From a virus: 23,982 nucleotides of DNA. Under the pieces are notes generated by a model that searched no databases, was not told the DNA's origin, and saw only the letters and a list, made by a program, of their open reading frames with translations. Location: positions 1 to 23,982 of the IMG/VR virus record IMGVR_UViG_3300027759_000421; one strand, written 5' to 3'. Within the stretch, counting starts at the first letter, position 1; each line of letters starts with the position of its first letter. Both the position numbers and the translations under genes were made by a program. Of the stretch, positions 1,764 to 13,133 are shown one piece after another.

Positions 1764-1963
1764 TTATCTATCCTATTTGCTAACATCATTAGCATATCTT
1801 TAATATCCTTGATATCACTTTTTAAGGTGGTTACCTCTACCTCTAGAGCTCTTTGAGATAGGATCTTTTCTTTTTCTTTTCTATACGTATTTAACGATTC
1901 CTGATCTACAGATATAACTGCATTAGATTTTGGATCTCGTGTAAACCCTTTAGCCTGTGTCAT
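1760..1963 (-). CDS. Small coiled-coil protein, virion-associated candidate
   Basis: A 67-residue protein starting MTQAKGFTRDPKSNAVISVD. The first 20 residues contain the pattern GF-x-RDPKSNAVI, which I recall from small proteins at this position in T4-like marine phages. Residues 25-66 are charged and heptad-like (EKEKILSQRALEVEV and onwards to MLMMLANRI), consistent with a single coiled coil. I chose the ATG at 1963 because it overlaps the upstream stop as ATGA, matching the other junctions here. A longer reading from a TTG at 1975 with AAGAG four bases upstream is possible and would add four residues. The gene also overlaps the next one by four bases. It may act as a small assembly or connector factor for the adjacent fibre proteins; this is inferred from position only. 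Confidence 0.7.
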   Translation of the reverse strand: MTQAKGFTRDPKSNAVISVDQESLNTYRKEKEKILSQRALEVEVTTLKSDIKDIKDMLMMLANRIDK

Positions 1964-4155
1964 ACTGTAGTACAAATAACTCTTAGGTCATCAACGGTCG
2001 GAAAATCGGTAGAACTATCAGAAACGAACACCAGCTTAACAGCGAATGATTTATATGTATCAAATGCAGAATACTTACCGTTATAGTAACGAATTACTCC
2101 ACCATTAATAAAGTTCTTATAAGCTGAGTTAGGTCTTGCACATACCTCAACTACTTTACCACCACCTCTAAAGTTACTGAATACTGAATTGCTTGTATCA
2201 ACAACTTGCTCAACTGTAAATGTAGTTGTATTAGCTGCTGTTACCACAGAGACAATACTATTGTTAGGAGATACTTTATCGTATATTCTCAATACTTGCC
2301 CTTGTGAAATAGAGCTGCTAACTGTTATAGCCGTATTATCTCTTACAAATACACCAGTATTAGATGTTGCTAATGCAAACGTAGTTGGAATAGCAGTAGT
2401 ATTGCTAGCAGGTAGACTGGCTAATGTAAAATCATTTACAGGGTATGGTGGTAATGAATATTGTAAATCTACGTAATCTTTTCTATTATCCGGATTACTA
2501 ATTAGATTAGGAGGGGCTAAGGATTGTAGTTCGGTCCAGTTCTTTAATTCCATACCCTCTGTATCTAAAGGATTAAAGAACTTAACATAAGCTTTAACAT
2601 CCGTTCCAGATGGTCTGTGAGCAGTTACAAATACTTTAATATCTTCTGAATCTTGACCTTCCGCTAACGTTACACGCTTGGAGATGAACTTAGCTTGTGC
2701 ACCACCCTTATTAGGTAGGTGTTCGTTTACTGTATTTGCATTACATACAAATCTCCATGCATCGAACTTTAAATACTCTTCATTTACAACCGGAGACGTA
2801 TATTCATTAACTGTACTTAGTGTCAAGTTAATATTAACAGACTTACCGTTTTCTAAAGTACCTGCATTCTGTGCTTCGTTAGATCTAGAATAAATGTATG
2901 CTTCAAAATCACTAAACCCTGTCTTCTCGTTAAATAAGATAGGATAGCGCTTGGTGTTTGTAGTATGACCAGTTCCTGCAAAACTTACCGATCCTGTTAC
3001 CTCAGTGCCAGATGGTAGGAATGGTAGATAGTCGGTTCGGAACGCATTAATTCTAAAGTCGTGTAAACCGGCTACTGATACATATGCTCCGGACTCAACC
3101 CCAACTACGTTGGATGAAGGTGCAAAGTAAGCGGTAGCATTAGAGCTTGATGCAATTAAAGCCAGTTGATTGGCTGAAGGGTAGTGGTGGAACACTCTTG
3201 CAATGACTGTGTCTTGATACTTTGCTGTAGTGTTAGAGAAAGATGGAGGGTCCTCTAAGGTCATAAACGTATTATTGGTAATAGCCTTAATAGCTCTTAC
3301 ATTATAATTTGTAGCCGATCTTAATACAATAAGATCGCTAGGGGCAAAGGTTGTAGAGAATACTGTATTGGTACCTACAATGTTAGCAGAAGATGAATTA
3401 GTAGATACTGTTTGACCGGCAGGGTCACCTACGTTAATATAAACAGGTTCACCTCCAATAAAATTACCAGATAAATTTGTAGCATTATAATAAAGCAATT
3501 CATAGTTTCTGTTAACAGCTCTATATGTTTTATTGTTGGCAGTAAACTTAGCTATGTTTACACGCATCATTAAGTCTGTGTCGTTTAACGGGGTAGTAAT
3601 AGTACCGTTAGTAAGTACAAATAGCTTGCCTGACATAGCACCGGCAGAAACTGCACCCGCAACACCTACGTTATATTGTTCGTTTGATCTATTTTTAAAT
3701 AATTGAAAACCTGTATCACCACCATCAAATTTAACTACAATAGAATAAAAGCGATTTGTTTTTAACGCTACTGGAGACGTAAACTTAAATATTGTACCCT
3801 TACCGCCCTGGTCTAGCCCTACTTGCCCCCCGCTAGAATATTCTGCGGTACCAGTTGCTGAATAAGGGTTTGGATTATCTTCTGGTTGTGTAGATACTAT
3901 AACATCTTTCCACTCCACCCTTGATCTACCATATTTCATGTAGTCAGTAAGTACAGGTTCTTGAGTACTGTTTTGATCTCTTGTTTCACAAAGGTAAACA
4001 GTTACACCTGGCTTTGGTAAATTAGTAGTTGTTGTACCTGGGGCAGGTTTGGATCTAAAGTAAAGAACAACACTGGTTACGAAAGCATAATCAGACTGTT
4101 TTACCGCTGACGAATCAACAGAAAAGGATTGTGCTAAATCAGCTATAATAGCCAT
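1960..4155 (-). CDS. Baseplate/fibre structural protein, C-terminal part of split DUF4815-type chain
   Basis: A 731-residue protein with no signal peptide or membrane segment. Residues 1-200 form a beta-sandwich-like module: LAQSFSVDSS, then FVTSVVLYFRSK, PGVTVYLCETRD and NRFYSIVVKFDGGDT. I recognise this as the QTF-type carbohydrate-binding-like module of giant marine phage structural proteins. The C-terminal half contains KFISKRVTLAEGQDSEDIKV, VTAHRPSGTDVKAYVKF, then a tail ending YSAFDTYKSFAVKLVFVSD and DDLRVI. The same order closes the large DUF4815-containing proteins of related phages. Here it is a separate gene with its own GAGG ribosome site seven bases before the ATG, seven bases after the 178-residue gene. 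It probably assembles with the two upstream gene products at the edge of the baseplate. Family correspondence is from memory. Confidence 0.75.
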   Translation of the reverse strand: MAIIADLAQSFSVDSSAVKQSDYAFVTSVVLYFRSKPAPGTTTTNLPKPGVTVYLCETRDQNSTQEPVLTDYMKYGRSRVEWKDVIVSTQPEDNPNPYSATGTAEYSSGGQVGLDQGGKGTIFKFTSPVALKTNRFYSIVVKFDGGDTGFQLFKNRSNEQYNVGVAGAVSAGAMSGKLFVLTNGTITTPLNDTDLMMRVNIAKFTANNKTYRAVNRNYELLYYNATNLSGNFIGGEPVYINVGDPAGQTVSTNSSSANIVGTNTVFSTTFAPSDLIVLRSATNYNVRAIKAITNNTFMTLEDPPSFSNTTAKYQDTVIARVFHHYPSANQLALIASSSNATAYFAPSSNVVGVESGAYVSVAGLHDFRINAFRTDYLPFLPSGTEVTGSVSFAGTGHTTNTKRYPILFNEKTGFSDFEAYIYSRSNEAQNAGTLENGKSVNINLTLSTVNEYTSPVVNEEYLKFDAWRFVCNANTVNEHLPNKGGAQAKFISKRVTLAEGQDSEDIKVFVTAHRPSGTDVKAYVKFFNPLDTEGMELKNWTELQSLAPPNLISNPDNRKDYVDLQYSLPPYPVNDFTLASLPASNTTAIPTTFALATSNTGVFVRDNTAITVSSSISQGQVLRIYDKVSPNNSIVSVVTAANTTTFTVEQVVDTSNSVFSNFRGGGKVVEVCARPNSAYKNFINGGVIRYYNGKYSAFDTYKSFAVKLVFVSDSSTDFPTVDDLRVICTTV

Positions 4156-4162
4156 AAATTCC

Positions 4163-4699
4163 TCATTCCCCTAAAATAATTTGTTCTGCTTTTTCAGAAC
4201 CTGCCTGCCAATAAGCAGGTGCATTAAAGTTTTGTACTTGCAAGGTATTAGTTGATCCAACTGCTGCTTCTGTAGAATCTGAATAATTAATTTCTTTAAT
4301 AGTTGCAGTATATGAAATTTTAATAATAGCTTCAGCAAAACATCTGGCTACGTTTCTAAAATTAGAAGGTAGAGTTTGATAGCCTGTAAGGCTAGCTGAA
4401 TCCGTTAATACTAAAGCTTTATTGCCAGCATTTAAGAGACTCCATCTAAACAACTCTTCTTCATTAGTAAAGTTTTGTCTACTTACAGTGTCCCTGTAGT
4501 AGAAAACAAACCTTACATGTCCATGATCGTCAGTCATGATATCAGTACTACCATTAGTTAATTTAACTTCATCTCCCTCTATTAATCTGACGCTATTAAA
4601 CCAGACGTCAAGAGGGGTGGATGTTAAAAGACCTTTAGCAGTAACTACAAAATTTTGTTCTTGTTGCTGTTGTAAAAAAACTTTTCTTTGTTTTGGCAT
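4163..4699 (-). CDS. Small beta-rich structural protein, middle part of split DUF4815-type chain
   Basis: A 178-residue protein with a Gln-rich start (QQQQEQ) and a core beginning VVTAKGLLTSTPLDVWFNSV. It continues with MTDDHGHVRFVFYYRDT and NAGNKALVLTDS. In giant marine phage fibre proteins I recall a comparable segment of the type 'GLKPNTRYYxFFD...D..G...G.F.IP...F..G.R.LRLTD', directly after the DUF4815 part. The spacing of the conserved features matches here, so I read this as that Ig-like or fibronectin-like segment encoded separately. A late promoter-like AATAAATA and an AAGAGA ribosome site lie just upstream. The downstream 731-residue gene starts seven bases after its stop. No function beyond a structural one can be supported, and a simple hypothetical protein is the fallback call. 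Confidence 0.6.
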   Translation of the reverse strand: MPKQRKVFLQQQQEQNFVVTAKGLLTSTPLDVWFNSVRLIEGDEVKLTNGSTDIMTDDHGHVRFVFYYRDTVSRQNFTNEEELFRWSLLNAGNKALVLTDSASLTGYQTLPSNFRNVARCFAEAIIKISYTATIKEINYSDSTEAAVGSTNTLQVQNFNAPAYWQAGSEKAEQIILGE

Positions 4700-4715: not shown

Positions 4716-4723
4716 TATTTATT
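4716..4723 (-). promoter_or_regulatory. Late promoter-like AATAAATA
   Basis: The minus strand reads AATAAATA, overlapping the TAA stop of the 2131-residue gene and ending 16 bases before the ATG of the 178-residue gene. It differs from the T4 late consensus TATAAATA only at the first base, which is variable in late promoters of T4-like cyanophages. Position at a gene boundary supports it; the AT-rich background and the stop codon make chance possible. Confidence 0.45.
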
Positions 4724-7700
4724 TGAACAATCTAGCAATTTTCTTAACCACATAGTCCACACCTTGTGCAACTACCGATGTTACTAGTAATACGGTTGTA
4801 ATACCCCATACAGCATAACCTCTTAGTAGTGAGCTCTTCTCAACCGGCTTAAAGCCCATTGCGCCCATTGCCCAGGAAATTGGTATACCAACTGCCATGA
4901 TAATCTTACCTGCTAGATTACTTTCTTTTCTCGCACCCATTCTATAAGCCATTTCGTACGCCCATGGCTTAGCTAACCAGCACAAATATTCAATAGTAAT
5001 TTTAGACGCAACTCTATCATGAGTTTCCTGATCTAACCAGAAGATACAACGTGGACCTAAGCCTTTGCCGTCCATCCAATCTACTACAGTCTGGGCCCAT
5101 GCAAGATATCCATAGTATGTATTAGGATATTTTTCACGTAGTAATTCTCCAAACTGTTGATCAGCAGCAAAGATGTCTTCTTCTAGCAATCCGAGCTCAT
5201 ATAGCTTAGTACAGATGATCTTACAACCACCGCCGCCGCCACCGCCGCCACCGCTTGGAGGAGGTGGAGGAGGTGGATCTGGAGTGTTGATAACTTCAAG
5301 TGTAGCTTGTACTCTAAACTCAGATGGCTCAACGAACATATCACCTGAGTAAACAGCGTTATATCCTGCACCTGTAATAGCAGAAGTAAATTTCTCTTGT
5401 CTAATAATAGCTACCTCACTAAAAGGTAACATCAAAGTAGCTTCTTGATTAGATACTTGACCTGGCTCATATAAGTTATGAGATTTTTCATTAGCATTAA
5501 TTGACACATTAGAGCTAGGTGAAACTTCTCTAGGCTTAATAATGTCAGCTTGTACGTTAGGATCAACGTAATCAAATCTCATTTGGAAGTTATAAGTTGC
5601 ATCTTCAGGATCTGCAACACCAGCAAGATCATCAATATGGATAAAGAACTCAGGGTTAGAAGTATCTGCACCTTCATATCCGTTAAATTGCTCTACATAG
5701 AATCCGTTCTTATGTCTATTCAAATATGGGTCAACAGAGCTTGGAATAAACAAATCTTTAGTCTTGGCTTCTAATTGATTTAAGCTTGTATAGAATTCTA
5801 TCTGTTCAATCCTTCTTTCCAATTGCCCGATATCCTTCATGGTATATCTTTTTGGCTGGAAAAACTGTGCCACAGTGTTTTCTGAATCTACTGTAAACTG
5901 AAAGTCTCTAATTCTTTTAACTGTAGGTTTATCCGTGTACACACCCCTAGACATAAATCCAAGGTTAGTATTGGACGGAATTCTAGCTACAGATGGGAAT
6001 GGTGGAACTATTACTGTTGCTACAGTCATAGTATCTGATGGTTGTGGAGGTGGTATTAGAGAGCCTTCACGTTGTGGAGTACCTTCAATATTTTTAATAG
6101 CCCCGCTACTATCAATAACTATTCTATCTAGTCTTGGTAAATATCTAGTAGCAGAGAACACGTAATCTGAATCAGGTACTGGGAATAATTTATCAGTTAT
6201 TCCAAATGCAACTGTATTGGAAGGATTAACACTAGCCGATGCAACTGAACCTGTAATAGTAGCAGTAGCAGTAGCGTGCGGTCTAAAATCTATAACATCG
6301 CTTAATATGTAAAAATCACCTTTGTTGTCCGTATAGTCAGGAATTTCTAACGGGTTAATTGCAGTGTTACCGAGAGTCGCTCTATTGCCAGTATTACTTG
6401 TAACGTATGAATCAACGTTATAGAATCTTCCAGTACCAGAGGTAGTGAATACATCTAGGTTAAGTAGTAGCCAAGCAGATCCGAGTGAGACATCAGCAAA
6501 GTTTTTCTTATGTAGATAAGCAAAGTCATAGTAGTCGTCTTTTTGACCCGACGTTACAAAGAAGTATTGACTTACATCAGGATCAGAAGTACTTACAGAA
6601 GAGTTAGATCCTAAGTATACTCCGTTCAATCTAAACACATCAGGTAAACCAATACACCAAGGACCAGTAGCACCTGCTGCATTATTAGCAAGACTTAACT
6701 TAACGTATACATTACGATTAATTGTCTTAGTAGTTGCCTGTGCTTGAGAGCGCTTTACATCAAAAGTTACAATAGCATTGGATTGACTTTGTAAAGTAAA
6801 TGTGTTACCGGCCGTGTTTCCTATTAGCCTTACATTTAAAGTTTGACCGCCAGATGTAGTATTAGCGTATAAATTCTTTAGAGATATCGGATGGTATTTT
6901 GGATAGTGCAATCTCATAATTGCGCCGTCAGCACTATTATAAGGCCATACTCTATTTAAGATTATATTACCTGAAGATAATCTGTTAGCAACTTTTGCAT
7001 AGTGAATATCTTCACCACCTGATGTGTTAAATGTACGAATCTCAACATGATCACCAATATCAAAATAAGTATTAATACCTGTAGCAAATACATTATCAGA
7101 ACCAAGCTGGCAATAAACAGCATAACCTGTTGTTGCGGTTGTATTTGATGTGGGTACTATAATTAAATCGTCTCTCTGTGATGGTGATAATTCAACAGAC
7201 GGTCCGTATTTAATAGTATCAGCACCACTGACTGAAACTTGTAATGCTCCATTTGTACCAATAACAGCAGATGTATCTACTTTCTTATATGTAAGAGTAG
7301 CGTTACTACCTGACTTAAGTGCTTTTGATCCAGTTCTAAAAACTAGTTTACTTTGACTTGGATTATAGAATATAGTACCAGTAGCACCGGTGGATGGAAT
7401 TAGCTCCTGTATTGGATCAGCAGTACCTTTAGGTGTACCTGGATAGGTAACGTTTTTAATTAACGACGTGCTCTTAGCTGGATTCATCTTGATATCATAC
7501 AGATACATTCTGTATAATGCTTCTGGAGTACCTGGTACACCTTCATGATGAACTAATGATCTTATTTTACCGGTACCAATTTGAGTACCTGGATCTTGGT
7601 CTAGTGTTACACCAATTAGCGGGGCTATGTTTGCTCCGTTAGGCAGGGCAACTAAGTTTGCAGAAATCGGTACACCTACATCTGCAATACCACTAACACC

Positions 7701-10700
7701 ACCTATAGCTTTAAATCCGATAACAGCATCAGCTGCAGTATTAAATTGACCTACTAATGCCTTTAAAATAGCGTTTTTACCGCCAGCGGAAACCGGGGTT
7801 AGAGTAGGAGGTTTAGTATACCCTATACCGTTATTAGAGAATGCAACACCAGTAATACCGCCGTTAAAGTCTACAGATGCAACATTACACGCAGCGCCGT
7901 ACCCTTTACCGTCTTGTGGAGATACAGTAATACTTTCTCCTACTTGATAACCCACACCACCTGAAGTTACTGTTACACCAGAAATACGAGAACCTATTTC
8001 TACTTTAGGTACTCCAATGTAATGGCCTGTTCTCCAGGTTGGAGTAAACGTAATACCGTTAACTTCACCTGTTGCAGTAGTAGTAAGTATTGCATTTGCA
8101 TGTGAATTAGAAATTAAAGTAACAGTAGCTGTATTACCGTTAGCCCAAGCAAAAGCCGTAGCATTTGCGTTAAACGGACCTGTACAATTAACCAACAGAT
8201 AGGTATTACCTGCAGCATCCCCTTTCGCAACATATGCTCTAGAGTTACCTTGAGATACACTAACACCTAGTGCCGTCGCAACAGTATGTGAAACATTAAG
8301 TGTAACATACATGCTGTTAGAAAGATTGTTACCTGTAAAGTAAACTACTCCACCTTGAGCAGCACCAGTTCCTGAGTTAGAATAATTTAATTGCTTACCT
8401 GCGGCGACATCTACTTTTGTAAGTTCAAAAGTAGGTACAGTTTTAAATGCAGTTCTAGTACTTGAAACATAACCGTTTCCTGCAGTTACAATTACTGCAC
8501 CGGTGTTAGCACCAGTGGCTATAATACCAGAGGCTACGTTAGATAATTTAAGGAAAGCTGAATTAGAGGTACTATATGCTACTGCATTAATGGTTTGTGT
8601 ATTAGGGTCATCTACAATAGCAACAGGGAATGAATTACTATAACCTGTACCACCAGAAGTAATATTAATAGATTTAATAGGTCCAACTGCAGTTAATGTT
8701 GGTGGGGTACTGTAAATACCAGGGTTTAAGATGTTTACACCTGGTTGAATTCTTCCTGTAGCATCTGTAGTTATTCTTATCTCAGCACTTGCATCATCCA
8801 CTACAGTAATATCGGTATTTGTACCAATATAATTTGCAGTATTACAGAGACTATCATTAGCCCCTGAACCAATCGTAACACGGAATGTACCTGTTGTATT
8901 AGCAACTACTATCTTATTAACTCCACCACCACTAACAGTTGCAGTAACTAGATTAATAATTGTACCACTGGCAATCGTAGTAGAAGAATTACCTTGTGCA
9001 ATAACATCACCGATGTTGAAATTAGTAGCACTACTGACAGTAAGAGTGGCGGCACCGGATAGAGAACCGCCAGTCACTCTTAAAGGAACTGTGTTAGTAA
9101 AATTAGAACCGCCGTCTACAACTCTTATACCAGTAACTCCAGAAATAACAGTTGCATTTGCAGATGAAGAGTAATTACTTCCTGGTGCTGAAATTGCAAT
9201 TGAGGTTATACTACCTGTATTATTAGTGGTTAAATAAGCTTCGGCTGCAGTACCGTATACGTCGTTTAATGTAACGTATTGATTATTAGTGTAACCTTCT
9301 CCACTACCTCTAATATTAAATCCGTATATACCACCTTGATATGCAGATGGGTACGCTGATAGATATGCACGAGGAGTGTCGTAGAAGTTAACGTTGGCAC
9401 CGGTGGATGTATTAAAGTATCCAGCCATCTCTTTTACATAAAGAAAGTTACCATAGTTTAAAGAAATGGTCTTTGTGTTAGAAACGTCTGTATCAGTACC
9501 TCTTCTAATATCAAGAACAGTATTTCTCTCTGATTCAATTCTCTTTCCCGAGATATATGCAACGCCTGGATCAACAATTAGTTCAGCATAGTCTGTATTA
9601 GCTGTTTGTTTATCTTGAGTAGAAGTAATAAATGTATCTAGAACGTAATCACCAGCGCTTTCAGAAGTACGTCTTTCAAATTCTTTAGCTAGAGTATTAT
9701 AAACTGTAGATTTATTTTGTTTGAATGGAAACCCATCTCTAAATTCTACTAAAGGTAAGAGCGAGTTATTAGCTGCCGCTGACGACACATTCAATGTAAC
9801 TAGGGTAGGTACCATTTTTAAACGATTGGCGCCTGGAGCTGCCTCGTTTGGTGTACCTAATGCATTATCCAATAGTGTACTATCTACACTACTATTAACA
9901 ATACTTTCATCAGTCGTAAACGCAACTATAGCATCGTTTACATAAGAGGAATAGGAATTTACAATTAATGTCTGACTGTCAACTCTTAAGAATTGTCCCT
10001 TCTGATACACAATACCATCTGTTACACTAAAAGCATATCCATTACCTGTAGGTGTAGTGCCGCTAGCGTTAAATGTACCATCAAGTACAGTAACTTGAGA
10101 CTTGTAGTTTCTAGGTAAGAGATCTAAATTAGTTAGAACTCCAGTTGCAGATCTAACCGTTACATACGGTAAGAATGAATAATTAGACCCCGACGATACC
10201 ATAGAGATATCGTTAATAGTACCCTGACTATCTGTTGTAAGAACGGCAGAGGCACCTGCACCTAGGATAGCAACCACGTTAGCAGTATTAGATGCACCTT
10301 GTATAACATTATATCCTACTGATGTAGTCCATTTGGTAGATGTTACTGAGGTATTGGATAAATCTGTTTGAATTGGCTTAACAGAAAGAATTTTATAGTT
10401 AGTATCTGTATAGGTAACAGAAGAAGTATCCCCGTTAGCCTCTACGGTGGTTAGCGTAACGGAGCCAAAAGAAGAATTAACAGAGAGAACATTTAAATTA
10501 GCGGTCGCGGTTTCTATAGTTTGAGAGATATTATTACCAGCACCAATTGTGCCATTGGTAAACTCTACTAAAATTTGACTTACTATTTGAACGGTATCAG
10601 AATTAGAGAATCCTGTACCTCCATTATTAACATCTATACCAAAGATATAGTTTGCATCACTGTAGATAGTTAGGACTTCTGAATTACTAAAAGCTGAGTA

Positions 10701-11114
10701 GGTTCCATCGTTACCTGAGTTCATGTAACGAAGGTATAGGTAATTTACATCAGGGTCACGGGATTTAAAACCTGTCTTATAATTAATAATCTTAGCAACA
10801 AGATTTGCAGAGTTTCTAATACTATAACCGTTATAACCTGGAAGGTCAACTGGAAGACTGTCTACCTGTACATCATCAATTTTAACGTATTCATATCTCT
10901 CATTAAAGTTAAAATTGACACCGCTAATAATAGTGCCGCTTTTAAATATGTGATCACCAAAACGCTCAATTTGATTCTGAAGTATTGTTTGAAGCTGGGT
11001 CAGCTCGCGGGCCTGTACGGAAACGCCAGGTCTAAAAAGAATCTTGTAGTAATCCTTATCTTGATCGTAGTCGTCAAAATAAGGGGAAATATTTAAATTT
11101 GTCTCTATAGGCAT
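4719..11114 (-). CDS. Giant DUF4815-type baseplate/fibre protein with C-terminal helical domain
   Basis: A 2131-residue protein. Residues 1-75 contain DYYKILFRPGVSVQARELTQ and QNQIERFGDHIFKSG, the hallmark start of DUF4815 proteins of marine T4-like phages, often annotated as gp10-like or as structural. Residues about 165-1110 carry at least nine repeats around a G-x-G-Y/F-T/S core. Residues about 1595-1830 regain conserved family features: YILSDVIDFRPHA, KPTVKRIRDFQFTVD, RYTMKDIGQLERRIEQIEFY. Residues 1947-1962 are a PDP7SG9C-type linker, about 1946-1963. The last 168 residues hold a helical domain (CKIICTKLYELGLLEED, LCWLAKPWAYEMAYRMG) and a hydrophobic stretch (VWGITTVLLVTSVVAQGV) before a basic end. 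The ribosome site is AGAGGT just before ATG. It likely forms the peripheral wedge or fibre attachment. The C-terminal domain is of unknown role and may touch a membrane. Confidence 0.85.
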   Translation of the reverse strand: MPIETNLNISPYFDDYDQDKDYYKILFRPGVSVQARELTQLQTILQNQIERFGDHIFKSGTIISGVNFNFNERYEYVKIDDVQVDSLPVDLPGYNGYSIRNSANLVAKIINYKTGFKSRDPDVNYLYLRYMNSGNDGTYSAFSNSEVLTIYSDANYIFGIDVNNGGTGFSNSDTVQIVSQILVEFTNGTIGAGNNISQTIETATANLNVLSVNSSFGSVTLTTVEANGDTSSVTYTDTNYKILSVKPIQTDLSNTSVTSTKWTTSVGYNVIQGASNTANVVAILGAGASAVLTTDSQGTINDISMVSSGSNYSFLPYVTVRSATGVLTNLDLLPRNYKSQVTVLDGTFNASGTTPTGNGYAFSVTDGIVYQKGQFLRVDSQTLIVNSYSSYVNDAIVAFTTDESIVNSSVDSTLLDNALGTPNEAAPGANRLKMVPTLVTLNVSSAAANNSLLPLVEFRDGFPFKQNKSTVYNTLAKEFERRTSESAGDYVLDTFITSTQDKQTANTDYAELIVDPGVAYISGKRIESERNTVLDIRRGTDTDVSNTKTISLNYGNFLYVKEMAGYFNTSTGANVNFYDTPRAYLSAYPSAYQGGIYGFNIRGSGEGYTNNQYVTLNDVYGTAAEAYLTTNNTGSITSIAISAPGSNYSSSANATVISGVTGIRVVDGGSNFTNTVPLRVTGGSLSGAATLTVSSATNFNIGDVIAQGNSSTTIASGTIINLVTATVSGGGVNKIVVANTTGTFRVTIGSGANDSLCNTANYIGTNTDITVVDDASAEIRITTDATGRIQPGVNILNPGIYSTPPTLTAVGPIKSINITSGGTGYSNSFPVAIVDDPNTQTINAVAYSTSNSAFLKLSNVASGIIATGANTGAVIVTAGNGYVSSTRTAFKTVPTFELTKVDVAAGKQLNYSNSGTGAAQGGVVYFTGNNLSNSMYVTLNVSHTVATALGVSVSQGNSRAYVAKGDAAGNTYLLVNCTGPFNANATAFAWANGNTATVTLISNSHANAILTTTATGEVNGITFTPTWRTGHYIGVPKVEIGSRISGVTVTSGGVGYQVGESITVSPQDGKGYGAACNVASVDFNGGITGVAFSNNGIGYTKPPTLTPVSAGGKNAILKALVGQFNTAADAVIGFKAIGGVSGIADVGVPISANLVALPNGANIAPLIGVTLDQDPGTQIGTGKIRSLVHHEGVPGTPEALYRMYLYDIKMNPAKSTSLIKNVTYPGTPKGTADPIQELIPSTGATGTIFYNPSQSKLVFRTGSKALKSGSNATLTYKKVDTSAVIGTNGALQVSVSGADTIKYGPSVELSPSQRDDLIIVPTSNTTATTGYAVYCQLGSDNVFATGINTYFDIGDHVEIRTFNTSGGEDIHYAKVANRLSSGNIILNRVWPYNSADGAIMRLHYPKYHPISLKNLYANTTSGGQTLNVRLIGNTAGNTFTLQSQSNAIVTFDVKRSQAQATTKTINRNVYVKLSLANNAAGATGPWCIGLPDVFRLNGVYLGSNSSVSTSDPDVSQYFFVTSGQKDDYYDFAYLHKKNFADVSLGSAWLLLNLDVFTTSGTGRFYNVDSYVTSNTGNRATLGNTAINPLEIPDYTDNKGDFYILSDVIDFRPHATATATITGSVASASVNPSNTVAFGITDKLFPVPDSDYVFSATRYLPRLDRIVIDSSGAIKNIEGTPQREGSLIPPPQPSDTMTVATVIVPPFPSVARIPSNTNLGFMSRGVYTDKPTVKRIRDFQFTVDSENTVAQFFQPKRYTMKDIGQLERRIEQIEFYTSLNQLEAKTKDLFIPSSVDPYLNRHKNGFYVEQFNGYEGADTSNPEFFIHIDDLAGVADPEDATYNFQMRFDYVDPNVQADIIKPREVSPSSNVSINANEKSHNLYEPGQVSNQEATLMLPFSEVAIIRQEKFTSAITGAGYNAVYSGDMFVEPSEFRVQATLEVINTPDPPPPPPPSGGGGGGGGGCKIICTKLYELGLLEEDIFAADQQFGELLREKYPNTYYGYLAWAQTVVDWMDGKGLGPRCIFWLDQETHDRVASKITIEYLCWLAKPWAYEMAYRMGARKESNLAGKIIMAVGIPISWAMGAMGFKPVEKSSLLRGYAVWGITTVLLVTSVVAQGVDYVVKKIARLFK
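5226..5276 (-). repeat. Poly-proline/poly-glycine codon tract (interdomain linker)
   Basis: On the minus strand seven CCA/CCT codons, one AGC and nine GGT/GGC codons follow one another, encoding Pro7-Ser-Gly9, then Cys at 5223-5225. The tract is strongly GC-rich compared with the AT-rich surroundings. The pyrimidine and purine halves are partly complementary, so the RNA could fold back imperfectly. It marks the boundary between the conserved DUF4815-type chain and the C-terminal helical domain. Trinucleotide runs of this kind can change length by slippage without breaking the frame. Confidence 0.85.
7810..10625 (-). repeat. Degenerate G-x-G-Y protein repeats in the DUF4815-type protein
   Basis: Nine related segments are visible: NNGGTGFSNSD, SSGSNYSFLP, GSGEGYTNNQ, APGSNYSSSA, DGGSNFTNT, NPGIYSTPP, TSGGTGYSNSF, TSGGVGYQVGE and SNNGIGYTKPP. 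Each is preceded by a hydrophobic strand such as ITSIAI or ISGVTV and often followed by a strand such as PTLTPV. They are irregularly spaced and diverged at the DNA level. The same repeat occurs in the gp7-like and gp8-like proteins. They probably form small repeated beta units that extend the protein. Confidence 0.7.
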
Positions 11115-11123
11115 CGTGACCTC

Positions 11124-13133
11124 TTAAAACTCCAAAACAAGTCTGATAGTTTCTGATTGTGATATGGATCTAGATATAGGATCGCTGCTTTCTATGTATA
11201 GAAGTTTACCGCTGTTTTTTACTATATCTGGGGTATACTTAGTTGTTACATTTGCTGTCGCCTGGCTATCTAAACCTCTAACTGTATTTAGCGTGCCAGC
11301 GCCAATGTATCCAACTTCTCCTGTGTAATAAATTACTGTGGAGTTTGCTTTGTGAATAATTCCAGAGGAACTCGTAGAAGATTGAACTAATCCTTCATCC
11401 TCCACAAATGTACCTGATATGTTACTAATATAGATTCTGCTTCTAGCATCAAAGGTCTGCCAGTTATTAAAATCTTTTGTATTTTCACCTACTGTAATAT
11501 TTGTAACGTTACCGATAGCCCCAGAATCCGCTCCTATGACTAAAAGCCCTTCTACAAATTTAGGTTCTGCGTTTGTTAGATATAAATCACCGCCGGAATA
11601 ACCTGATCTAACACCCACGGCTGTAACAGTTGCTAATGCAAATTTAGTAGCTGTACATGAAAAAGATACATTTGAATTAACTTGTATATGAGTAGTATTG
11701 ACCGCAGTTACTGTTCTAATACATTGCACACTATTAGTAGTATCGTAGAAATAAACATAATCTCCAACTCTCACACTATTACCAATGTCAAAGACTGACC
11801 CAGAGGTATTAGAGTAATTATTAGAAGAAGAGCTTACATTAAGAGTTCCAAGTAGTGTACTATATTTAAATTGATAGATATTTTCTGTACCAGAAGTTGC
11901 GCCTTGTTCACCGCTCAATGAAAGAGTGACATTATCAAAGTATGGATCTTTTAAGATACTAATTTTTCTATAGTCATTATTGACAGGAATATAGCCTGTT
12001 TCGTTAGTTTGATATTGTACAGATATACCAAGCTTGCTGCTGCCTAATTCTTTTGCAACATCATAGCCGTGTCCACCAGCTGGAGTAATAATTGGTACTA
12101 GAACAGCAGCGTTGGATGCAGCGTTTGAAGTTCCAGTATTTCCTATAACGGTTGCAGTGGCATACGTGTAGCCAATACCAGTGTTAACCATCACTACACC
12201 AGTGATAGGGTATGCTGGAGTAACTGATGTTGTATTTACTACTGCATATGCTAGAGCCCCTTCTCCATCTCCTGTAATATATACTTCCGGTCTAACAAGA
12301 TAAGAAGTAGTATCGTCCGGAGTAGTATCAAAAGCTTCATCAATTGTAGCAACTCTTGCTGATGTAAAATCTATAATACGACGCATTTGACCGGCACCTA
12401 CACCTTCATTCAAATAGAGAACGCACCCAGTATAAAAATCCGTGTTGCTAGAAGATGTACCAGTCAGTCTGTAAGTAGTGTTGTTAGATACTTTAACGTC
12501 GCCAGAAGTAAATGTTCCATTTACAGAAGAATAGTAGCTTGAACCGTTAGATGTAATATCAACAGTAAGAATAGAATGGTTTACAGTATTACCTTGAACA
12601 GCAGTATTACTGTATACAGGCATGTAGTTAGAAGTAGCAAACTTTTCAAATGTAGTTTCGGATACTTGATATAAGAATTTCCAAACATACCCGTCAGCAG
12701 TTTCAAAATAATCTGCCTCTGCATCGGTATCAGTAGGTGCTTGTGTTGAGGTAGAATCAAAGTTATTATTTAAACATTTGTATATGTTGTATACCGATCC
12801 ATTTTTATGCACCACATAAAATTGCTTGTCATATAATGTTTCATCTAAATGAGAGTATTTGGCATACACCGTGTTAGAGGTCCAGGTATATTTGTTTACC
12901 ATCAAAGCAATATCGCTGCTTGATATTTTTTTACCAAAAATTAATTCATTATAATAATCTATTTCAGTTTCTTTTACAGAATCGTAGAGGGTAGGGATAT
13001 TATCGTCTCCCGAATCATATTCTGTATGACGGGATGCAGTTACGTAATACACGTTATTAGCCGGCTCAGTCAACGATTCGTATAACTGATTTGCTACGTG
13101 TCCTCTAAAATTTGAAAGTATTGTCTTTGCCAT
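11124..13133 (-). CDS. 8: gp8-like baseplate wedge protein
   Basis: A 669-residue protein about twice the length of T4 gp8 (334). The N-terminal 190 residues contain the gp8-type series YDSVKETEIDYYNELIFGKK, NGSVYNIYKCLNNNFDSTST, ETADGYVWKFLYQVS and FATSNYMPVYSN. The C-terminus closes with GKLLYIESSDPISRSISQSE, the usual end of this family. The added length lies in the middle and C-terminal part, with a G-I-G-Y-T unit at about residue 319 and a GTFVEDEGLVQ unit at about residue 580. In T4, gp8 dimers join gp7 and gp10 in each wedge. It lies between the gp7-like and gp10-like genes, as expected. The ribosome site is weak (AAAGACAAAA), but a late promoter-like octamer sits 18 bases upstream of the ATG. 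Confidence 0.88.
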   Translation of the reverse strand: MAKTILSNFRGHVANQLYESLTEPANNVYYVTASRHTEYDSGDDNIPTLYDSVKETEIDYYNELIFGKKISSSDIALMVNKYTWTSNTVYAKYSHLDETLYDKQFYVVHKNGSVYNIYKCLNNNFDSTSTQAPTDTDAEADYFETADGYVWKFLYQVSETTFEKFATSNYMPVYSNTAVQGNTVNHSILTVDITSNGSSYYSSVNGTFTSGDVKVSNNTTYRLTGTSSSNTDFYTGCVLYLNEGVGAGQMRRIIDFTSARVATIDEAFDTTPDDTTSYLVRPEVYITGDGEGALAYAVVNTTSVTPAYPITGVVMVNTGIGYTYATATVIGNTGTSNAASNAAVLVPIITPAGGHGYDVAKELGSSKLGISVQYQTNETGYIPVNNDYRKISILKDPYFDNVTLSLSGEQGATSGTENIYQFKYSTLLGTLNVSSSSNNYSNTSGSVFDIGNSVRVGDYVYFYDTTNSVQCIRTVTAVNTTHIQVNSNVSFSCTATKFALATVTAVGVRSGYSGGDLYLTNAEPKFVEGLLVIGADSGAIGNVTNITVGENTKDFNNWQTFDARSRIYISNISGTFVEDEGLVQSSTSSSGIIHKANSTVIYYTGEVGYIGAGTLNTVRGLDSQATANVTTKYTPDIVKNSGKLLYIESSDPISRSISQSETIRLVLEF

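Follow-up and report, generated by a model that had tools for sequence, protein, structure and literature searches.

Why does a phage baseplate protein end in a run of prolines and glycines followed by a cysteine-containing domain, and what might such a domain do on a virion? The question is raised by a 23,982-nucleotide stretch of viral DNA (IMG/VR record IMGVR_UViG_3300027759_000421), called the window throughout, in which a minus-strand open reading frame at 4719-11114 translates directly into a protein of 2131 residues. The first-pass annotation of this DNA had proposed that the chain carries a mobile, linker-tethered C-terminal domain that resembles CFI-box domains and could insert in or dock to a membrane. 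Taken as a whole, that interpretation is partly supported, its mobile, linker-tethered, CFI-box-like and membrane-like elements being mostly upheld. Going beyond it, the present analysis finds repeated switching of carriers, partner genes downstream of the domain, and one partner family that is of the CFI-box superfamily.

The baseplate chain and its neighbours

Translation bears out the layout that had been read from the letters, namely a poly-Pro/poly-Gly linker, a C-terminal domain of about 168 residues, and a hydrophobic span with a basic tail at the very end (Table 1). Of the four cysteines of the domain, those at domain positions 1 and 5 form the C-x3-C pair that had been pointed out, and the other two are at 60 and 82; the motifs CTKLYELG and PWAYEMAYRMG are both present. 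In the family alignment, which holds no conserved set of catalytic residues, the cysteine at position 5 (in K-I-I-C) is the only invariant one of the four. The hydrophobic span occupies domain positions 138-156 (AVWGITTVLLVTSVVAQGV) and is overlapped by a 19-mer that reaches the octanol-scale minimum of the domain, -4.9 kcal/mol; the basic tail DYVVKKIARLFK follows it.

Table 1. Features of the carrier locus, with positions in the window.
Feature	Positions	Strand	Basis
731-aa ORF, homologous to the distal part of the single-chain DUF4815 protein	1960..4155	-	Alignment with OC p048; phrog_358
178-aa downstream ORF without partner-gene similarity	4163..4699	-	Homologues only behind DUF4815 carriers L001, L007, L027
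Basic tail, DYVVKKIARLFK	4722..4757	-	Direct translation
Membrane-like hydrophobic span of the last helix, aa 2101-2119	4758..4814	-	Kyte-Doolittle mean 1.73
C-terminal helical domain, 168 aa, aa 1964-2131	4722..5225	-	Profile relatives; AF2 pLDDT 87
Pro7-Ser-Gly9 linker, aa 1947-1963, PPPPPPPSGGGGGGGGG	5226..5276	-	Direct translation
Carrier: DUF4815 / VriC-type baseplate chain, aa 1-1946	5277..11114	-	PF16075 E 1.8e-43; phrog_358 E 3.5e-164

The carrier gene adjoins a gp8-like baseplate wedge gene (11124-13133, phrog_438), and a DUF4815 chain beside the wedge gene is an order also found in the cyanophages P-RSM1 and S-B64. Gene p048 of Ochrobactrum phage OC encodes a single chain of 1942 residues, the first part of which matches the window carrier up to its residue 1932 (p048 residues 10-1110 align with it) and the later part of which matches the 731-residue product, whose residues 7-569 align with 1386-1888 of p048 and which also matches phrog_358 at 1851-2021. 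By this one-chain alignment, the baseplate chain of the window lineage stops with the module, and the distal part is encoded separately. The 178-residue ORF listed in Table 1 lies between these two parts. The DUF4815 proteins of the isolates phage OC, P-RSM1 and S-B64 are continuous chains without the domain, which in the window is an extra suffix on a DUF4815 / VriC protein (PF16075, phrog_358).

A helical module on unrelated carriers

Searched alone, the last 170 residues have no match in Pfam at E values up to 10, which places the C-terminal 168 residues outside DUF4815 (PF16075), and neither NCBIfam nor the PHROGs contain a match for the domain. A profile of 24 members likewise matches no chain of the PDB by sequence. 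An AlphaFold2 model built on 24 relatives agrees with the separate, linker-tethered C-terminal domain that had been expected, being confident and all-helical (mean pLDDT 87, pTM 0.78), with six helices at 4-10, 16-32, 34-51, 66-95, 104-122 and 133-167, the last a single helix of 35 residues. Among viral proteins, Foldseek gave only three clear matches to this model (E below 1e-8). One has 616 residues, the same length as the domain-bearing gp28 of Synechococcus phage SynMITS9220M01; the others are a DUF4815 protein and a phage protein that is uncharacterized. Among solved structures, Foldseek and VIA-align found no informative fold (best Z 4.1, unspecific for helical bundles). Matches of single members to NrfF (E 3e-4), a class D beta-lactamase and PsbX were weak and not family-wide, and were set aside. 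Because the domain of the window is from 68% (L001) down to about 37% identical to those of other phages, with dN/dS of about 0.03-0.16 between close pairs, we take it to be a selected protein. No family in the domain libraries searched corresponds to this C-terminal module, which is undescribed and, as set out below, portable.

Successive profile scans of viral contigs found 30, then 44 and then at least 129 loci. The domain is C-terminal in all cases read, and its carriers fall into dozens of groups without detectable mutual similarity. They include DUF4815 chains (the window and 16 other distinct cases), glycine-rich and LamG fibre-like proteins, small Cys/Asn-rich proteins, an Ig-like plus glycine-rich protein with a long proline run, a gp5-like tail hub (similar to the PHROG of baseplate hub and tail lysozyme, E about 1e-31), and a protein with a Hint domain immediately before the module (L045; E 5e-9). 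A phage record usually holds one copy (30/35) and sometimes two (5/35); phage L092 has two domains, 91% identical, in adjacent genes. The long form occurs in one of 50,697 phage records, that of SynMITS9220M01.

A tree of 80 domains requires at least 17 carrier changes, against 7 if each carrier type had arisen once, and at least 4 changes among DUF4815-borne domains are forced by well-supported branches alone. Domains that are 87-92% identical are found on unrelated carriers (L091/L097, at 91%; L053/L076; L093/L105). Where the carriers are unlike, their DNA becomes similar about 15-22 nt ahead of the domain, within the glycine codons, and stays so past the stop codon into the partner region. 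A glycine or proline run of at least four residues precedes the domain in 47 of the 80 distinct carriers. The domain is therefore modular, and its carriers have been switched many times with breakpoints in the linker. The mobility that had been supposed for the tethered domain is evident in both tree and DNA, and other aquatic phage proteins and alphaproteobacterial proteins do end in the same kind of domain, with a glycine run and K-I-I-C-T-x-L-Y.

Several of these carriers have features of their own. In gp28 of SynMITS9220M01 (L003, 8669-10519) and in L029, L046 and L047 the linker consists of about 33 prolines and then about 8 arginines, an extreme low-complexity tract kept across several phages. 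In L045 (2247-8528) the intein-like Hint domain abuts the module, ...FIVEGIVVHNK being followed directly by SVICSKLYELG, a junction that suggests a self-cleavage that would free the module. The short gp5-like hubs that end in the module (L034-L036 and L038; OB domain, similarity to the hub PHROG) are followed by a 53-residue ORF that is faintly P1-like (E 0.4; P1 is described below).

Alongside the long form there is a short form of about 110 residues, found in bacteria and a few phages, that lacks the phage loop and mostly also the final hydrophobic helix. Each of the 70 long forms contains a 19-residue stretch whose octanol free energy is favourable (beyond position 120 in 58 of them), so the membrane-like tail is a feature of the long, phage form. 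Most bacterial members lack the span, which makes it something that phages have added to a core of about 110 residues; for the same reason membrane insertion cannot be the shared function of that core. The membrane-like C-terminal part described for the window thus holds for every long form but not for most of the bacterial ones.

The bacterial spread of the short form is rare (4/289 in the class and 2/398 in the phylum of Sneathiella); it occurs in two Sneathiella genomes, near phage-like genes in the one inspected. Elsewhere it is found on an RTX protein (E 1e-35), on a YD-shell/RHS-like protein (L048; a weak match) and at the end of gp49 of Puniceispirillum phage HMO-2011, the gene of which sits between the portal and coat genes, outside any tail-fibre cluster. 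Short-form genes on Rhizobium and Vibrio plasmids adjoin genes for HlyD and a peptidase-type export ABC transporter, whose highest NCBIfam match, to the NHLM bacteriocin exporter, falls short of the cut-off; in the Vibrio protein a double-glycine leader is apparent (read by eye). On the Rhizobium plasmid (L121, 5731-7005) the domain protein lies with a 63-residue hydrophobic ORF and an 80-residue microcin-like ORF with an apparent GG leader (by eye), and the HlyD and peptidase ABC exporter genes follow. On the Vibrio europaeus plasmid (L122, 1315-9804) the domain and exporter genes lie beside genes annotated, by annotation only, as a YopT-type protease and a TcdA/TcdB-type glycosyltransferase.

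Partner genes and the CFI-box

A small partner gene lies directly behind the domain gene in 48 of 83 distinct cases, a rate that is conditional because the loci were found by the domain itself; many of the viral contigs are fragments. The partner belongs to one of two families, which never occur together at one locus: P1 (28 cases) is helical-looking and about 60 residues long, and P2 (20 cases) has 110-135 residues. In the case of L062 and L066, a short-form domain is fused to the P2 partner itself. A detectable P2 occurs in one of 50,697 phage records, again SynMITS9220M01, where its gene is adjacent to the long-form gene. Reciprocal searches with the partners in viral contigs returned close relatives only. 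None of the 17 DUF4815 carriers, window included, has a partner directly behind the domain, and the P1 and P2 profiles have no match in the window or in DUF4815-carrier contigs of up to 202 kb, in a scan where the P1 positive controls matched and the P2 run had no positive control alongside. A partner hidden elsewhere in the window phage was accordingly set aside as far as the window reaches, with that same qualification for P2.

Profile comparisons connect P2 to phage relatives of the CFI-box (E 7.7e-19) and to a broader CFI set (E 1.4e-7), and the phage relatives to the canonical CFI-box (E 1.4e-11). Typical P2 members alone have no match to the CFI-box model NF041770; the partner in L077 passes its cut-off (44.9 bits against 40). 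On these sequence profiles, P2 belongs to the CFI-box superfamily.

For the domain itself, the likeness to the CFI-box that had been remarked on stands as to layout and fails as to any direct match. The CFI-box proteins that we fetched have a glycine run, a cysteine, helices and often a hydrophobic span and basic tail, in the same order as in the domain. Yet NF041770, with its 40-bit cut-off, has no match to the window domain at E values up to 10, nor to 24 members of the family at E values up to 1, and the family reads K-I-I-C-T/x where the CFI-box has C-F-I-[AV]-T. Comparison of the two profiles gives E values of 0.04-0.5, which are not significant; the hhalign score of 15.6 compares with a mean of 10.5 (sd 1.9, maximum 15.3) for column-shuffled profiles. 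The AlphaFold2 helices of the phage CFI-box relatives (3-10, 18-33, 35-51, 58-74 and 78-96) and those of the domain have their first members in common positions; when Foldseek was searched with the CFI model, the domain was not among the matches listed. That the domain is simply a CFI-box is thus not supported by model match, profile comparison or Foldseek. The two may share a common descent. HMO-2011 gp49 (L229) and a phage protein with an internal CFI-box (L120) share a GEFVxPADVV stretch, in a region 43% identical over 37 residues (pairwise E 5e-4), as if one carrier type could hold either the domain or a CFI-box.

What the module may do

We favour, with a probability of about 0.42, the view that this undescribed portable module, extended in phages, docks to or inserts into the membrane of the attacked cell, and that the partner keeps it harmless or soluble. 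In phages a loop, a membrane-like helix and a basic tail extend the all-helical core, which is about 110 residues long and has a single invariant cysteine, and the whole hangs on a flexible Gly/Pro linker from tail-hub, baseplate and fibre-like proteins. When the tail reaches a cell, the tethered domain would dock to a membrane at the envelope and its last helix might insert there, and such docking could help to secure the tail tip or to ready the inner membrane for the entry of DNA. Until assembly, the partner, from the 60-residue helical family or related to the CFI-box, would keep the sticky module soluble or prevent it from doing harm; at DUF4815 carriers, which lack a partner, the large chain perhaps shields the domain. 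This docking role is consistent with the modularity of the domain, the membrane-like helix of every long form, the usual single copy per record and the frequent partner genes, with carriers that meet cells (the gp5-like hub, the LamG and fibre families, the DUF4815 chain) and with bacterial short forms on exported-type proteins (the RTX protein, and those beside HlyD and export ABC genes), whereas the missing P1 and P2 in the window and all 17 DUF4815 carriers, and the place of the HMO-2011 carrier gene between portal and coat genes, argue against it. So do the lack of the span in most bacterial short forms and the fact that a hydrophobic helix, here modelled as one of 35 residues, can also lie buried in a protein interface.

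The main rival would make the module a virion-borne, membrane-active effector of bacteriocin-like character, brought into or onto the attacked cell, for example so that other phages are excluded, with the downstream gene providing immunity (or a chaperone) and the pair passed as a cassette among the tail hubs, baseplate chains and fibres of aquatic phages; the partner would then have been recruited either from a small helical family or from the CFI-box superfamily, which are unrelated to each other, and the core would arm bacterial secreted weapons. A swappable C-terminal domain with a small gene directly downstream is the architecture of polymorphic toxin cassettes (PMC3482391). Relatives behind a Hint domain (L045), on the weakly matched YD-shell/RHS-like protein (L048) and beside peptidase-type bacteriocin-export ABC genes, with the microcin-like ORF and its apparent GG leader in Rhizobium, point the same way. 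Nevertheless, we consider this account, its parts taken jointly, unlikely: the alignment has no conserved catalytic residue set, the DUF4815 carriers have no detected partner, PADLOC gave no match, and P2 is of the CFI-box type, which in other proteins is a C-terminal tag in its own right and so does not resemble a dedicated immunity protein.

Chaperones are often encoded by small genes that follow fibre genes, and the usual single copy per record and the many fibre-like carriers would also fit an assembly module, a coupling piece that plugs fibres into the virion with its hydrophobic helix buried in the joint and the partner as assembly chaperone. We nonetheless find a coupling piece quite improbable, given that the domain also ends the core baseplate chain and the tail hub, both already anchored, and that short forms are carried by bacterial exported proteins, where there is no virion. 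Least probable is a C-terminal tag for sorting or processing that would be cleaved or modified, at the linker or at the invariant cysteine, in the manner of GlyGly-CTERM or MYXO-CTERM. The order of glycine run, cysteine, hydrophobic helix and basic tail, shared with the fetched CFI-box proteins, speaks for it; against it are some 130 residues between glycine run and span, usually one protein per record rather than many, the lack of the span in most bacterial forms, and the fact that phage virions normally form in the cytoplasm.

Whichever role it has, this domain family has no name, is missing from the domain libraries and hardly occurs in cultured phages (one long-form record in 50,697). It roams across the tail proteins of uncultivated aquatic phages and gives a handle on the exchange of tail-tip parts. 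It also gives a handle on the CFI-box, annotated and still unexplained, a relative of which is the genetic partner of the domain, and it may represent a device shared by phage tails and bacterial secreted weapons. If the effector account were true, phage tails would carry swappable tips as polymorphic toxins do. In SynMITS9220M01, an isolated phage with the domain as well as the partner, the role of the module is directly testable.

Three known systems invite comparison. The GlyGly-CTERM signal (PMC3237569) is a 22-residue sequence, with no cysteine in its motif, that occurs many times per genome and is paired with rhombosortase. The domain shares with it a glycine-rich motif, a hydrophobic helix and a basic C-terminus, but has 168 residues and a cysteine beside the glycine run, is usually present once per record, and does not have a short, cysteine-free glycine motif directly before a transmembrane helix. 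The CFI-box-CTERM (NF041770) proteins, like the domain, combine a C-terminal position behind a glycine-rich stretch with an early cysteine and small helices. From the polymorphic toxins the domain differs in that no catalytic residues are seen and the partner is absent from DUF4815 carriers; what it has in common with them is a swappable C-terminal domain behind variable carriers, an adjacent small gene, and RHS-like, Hint and export contexts.
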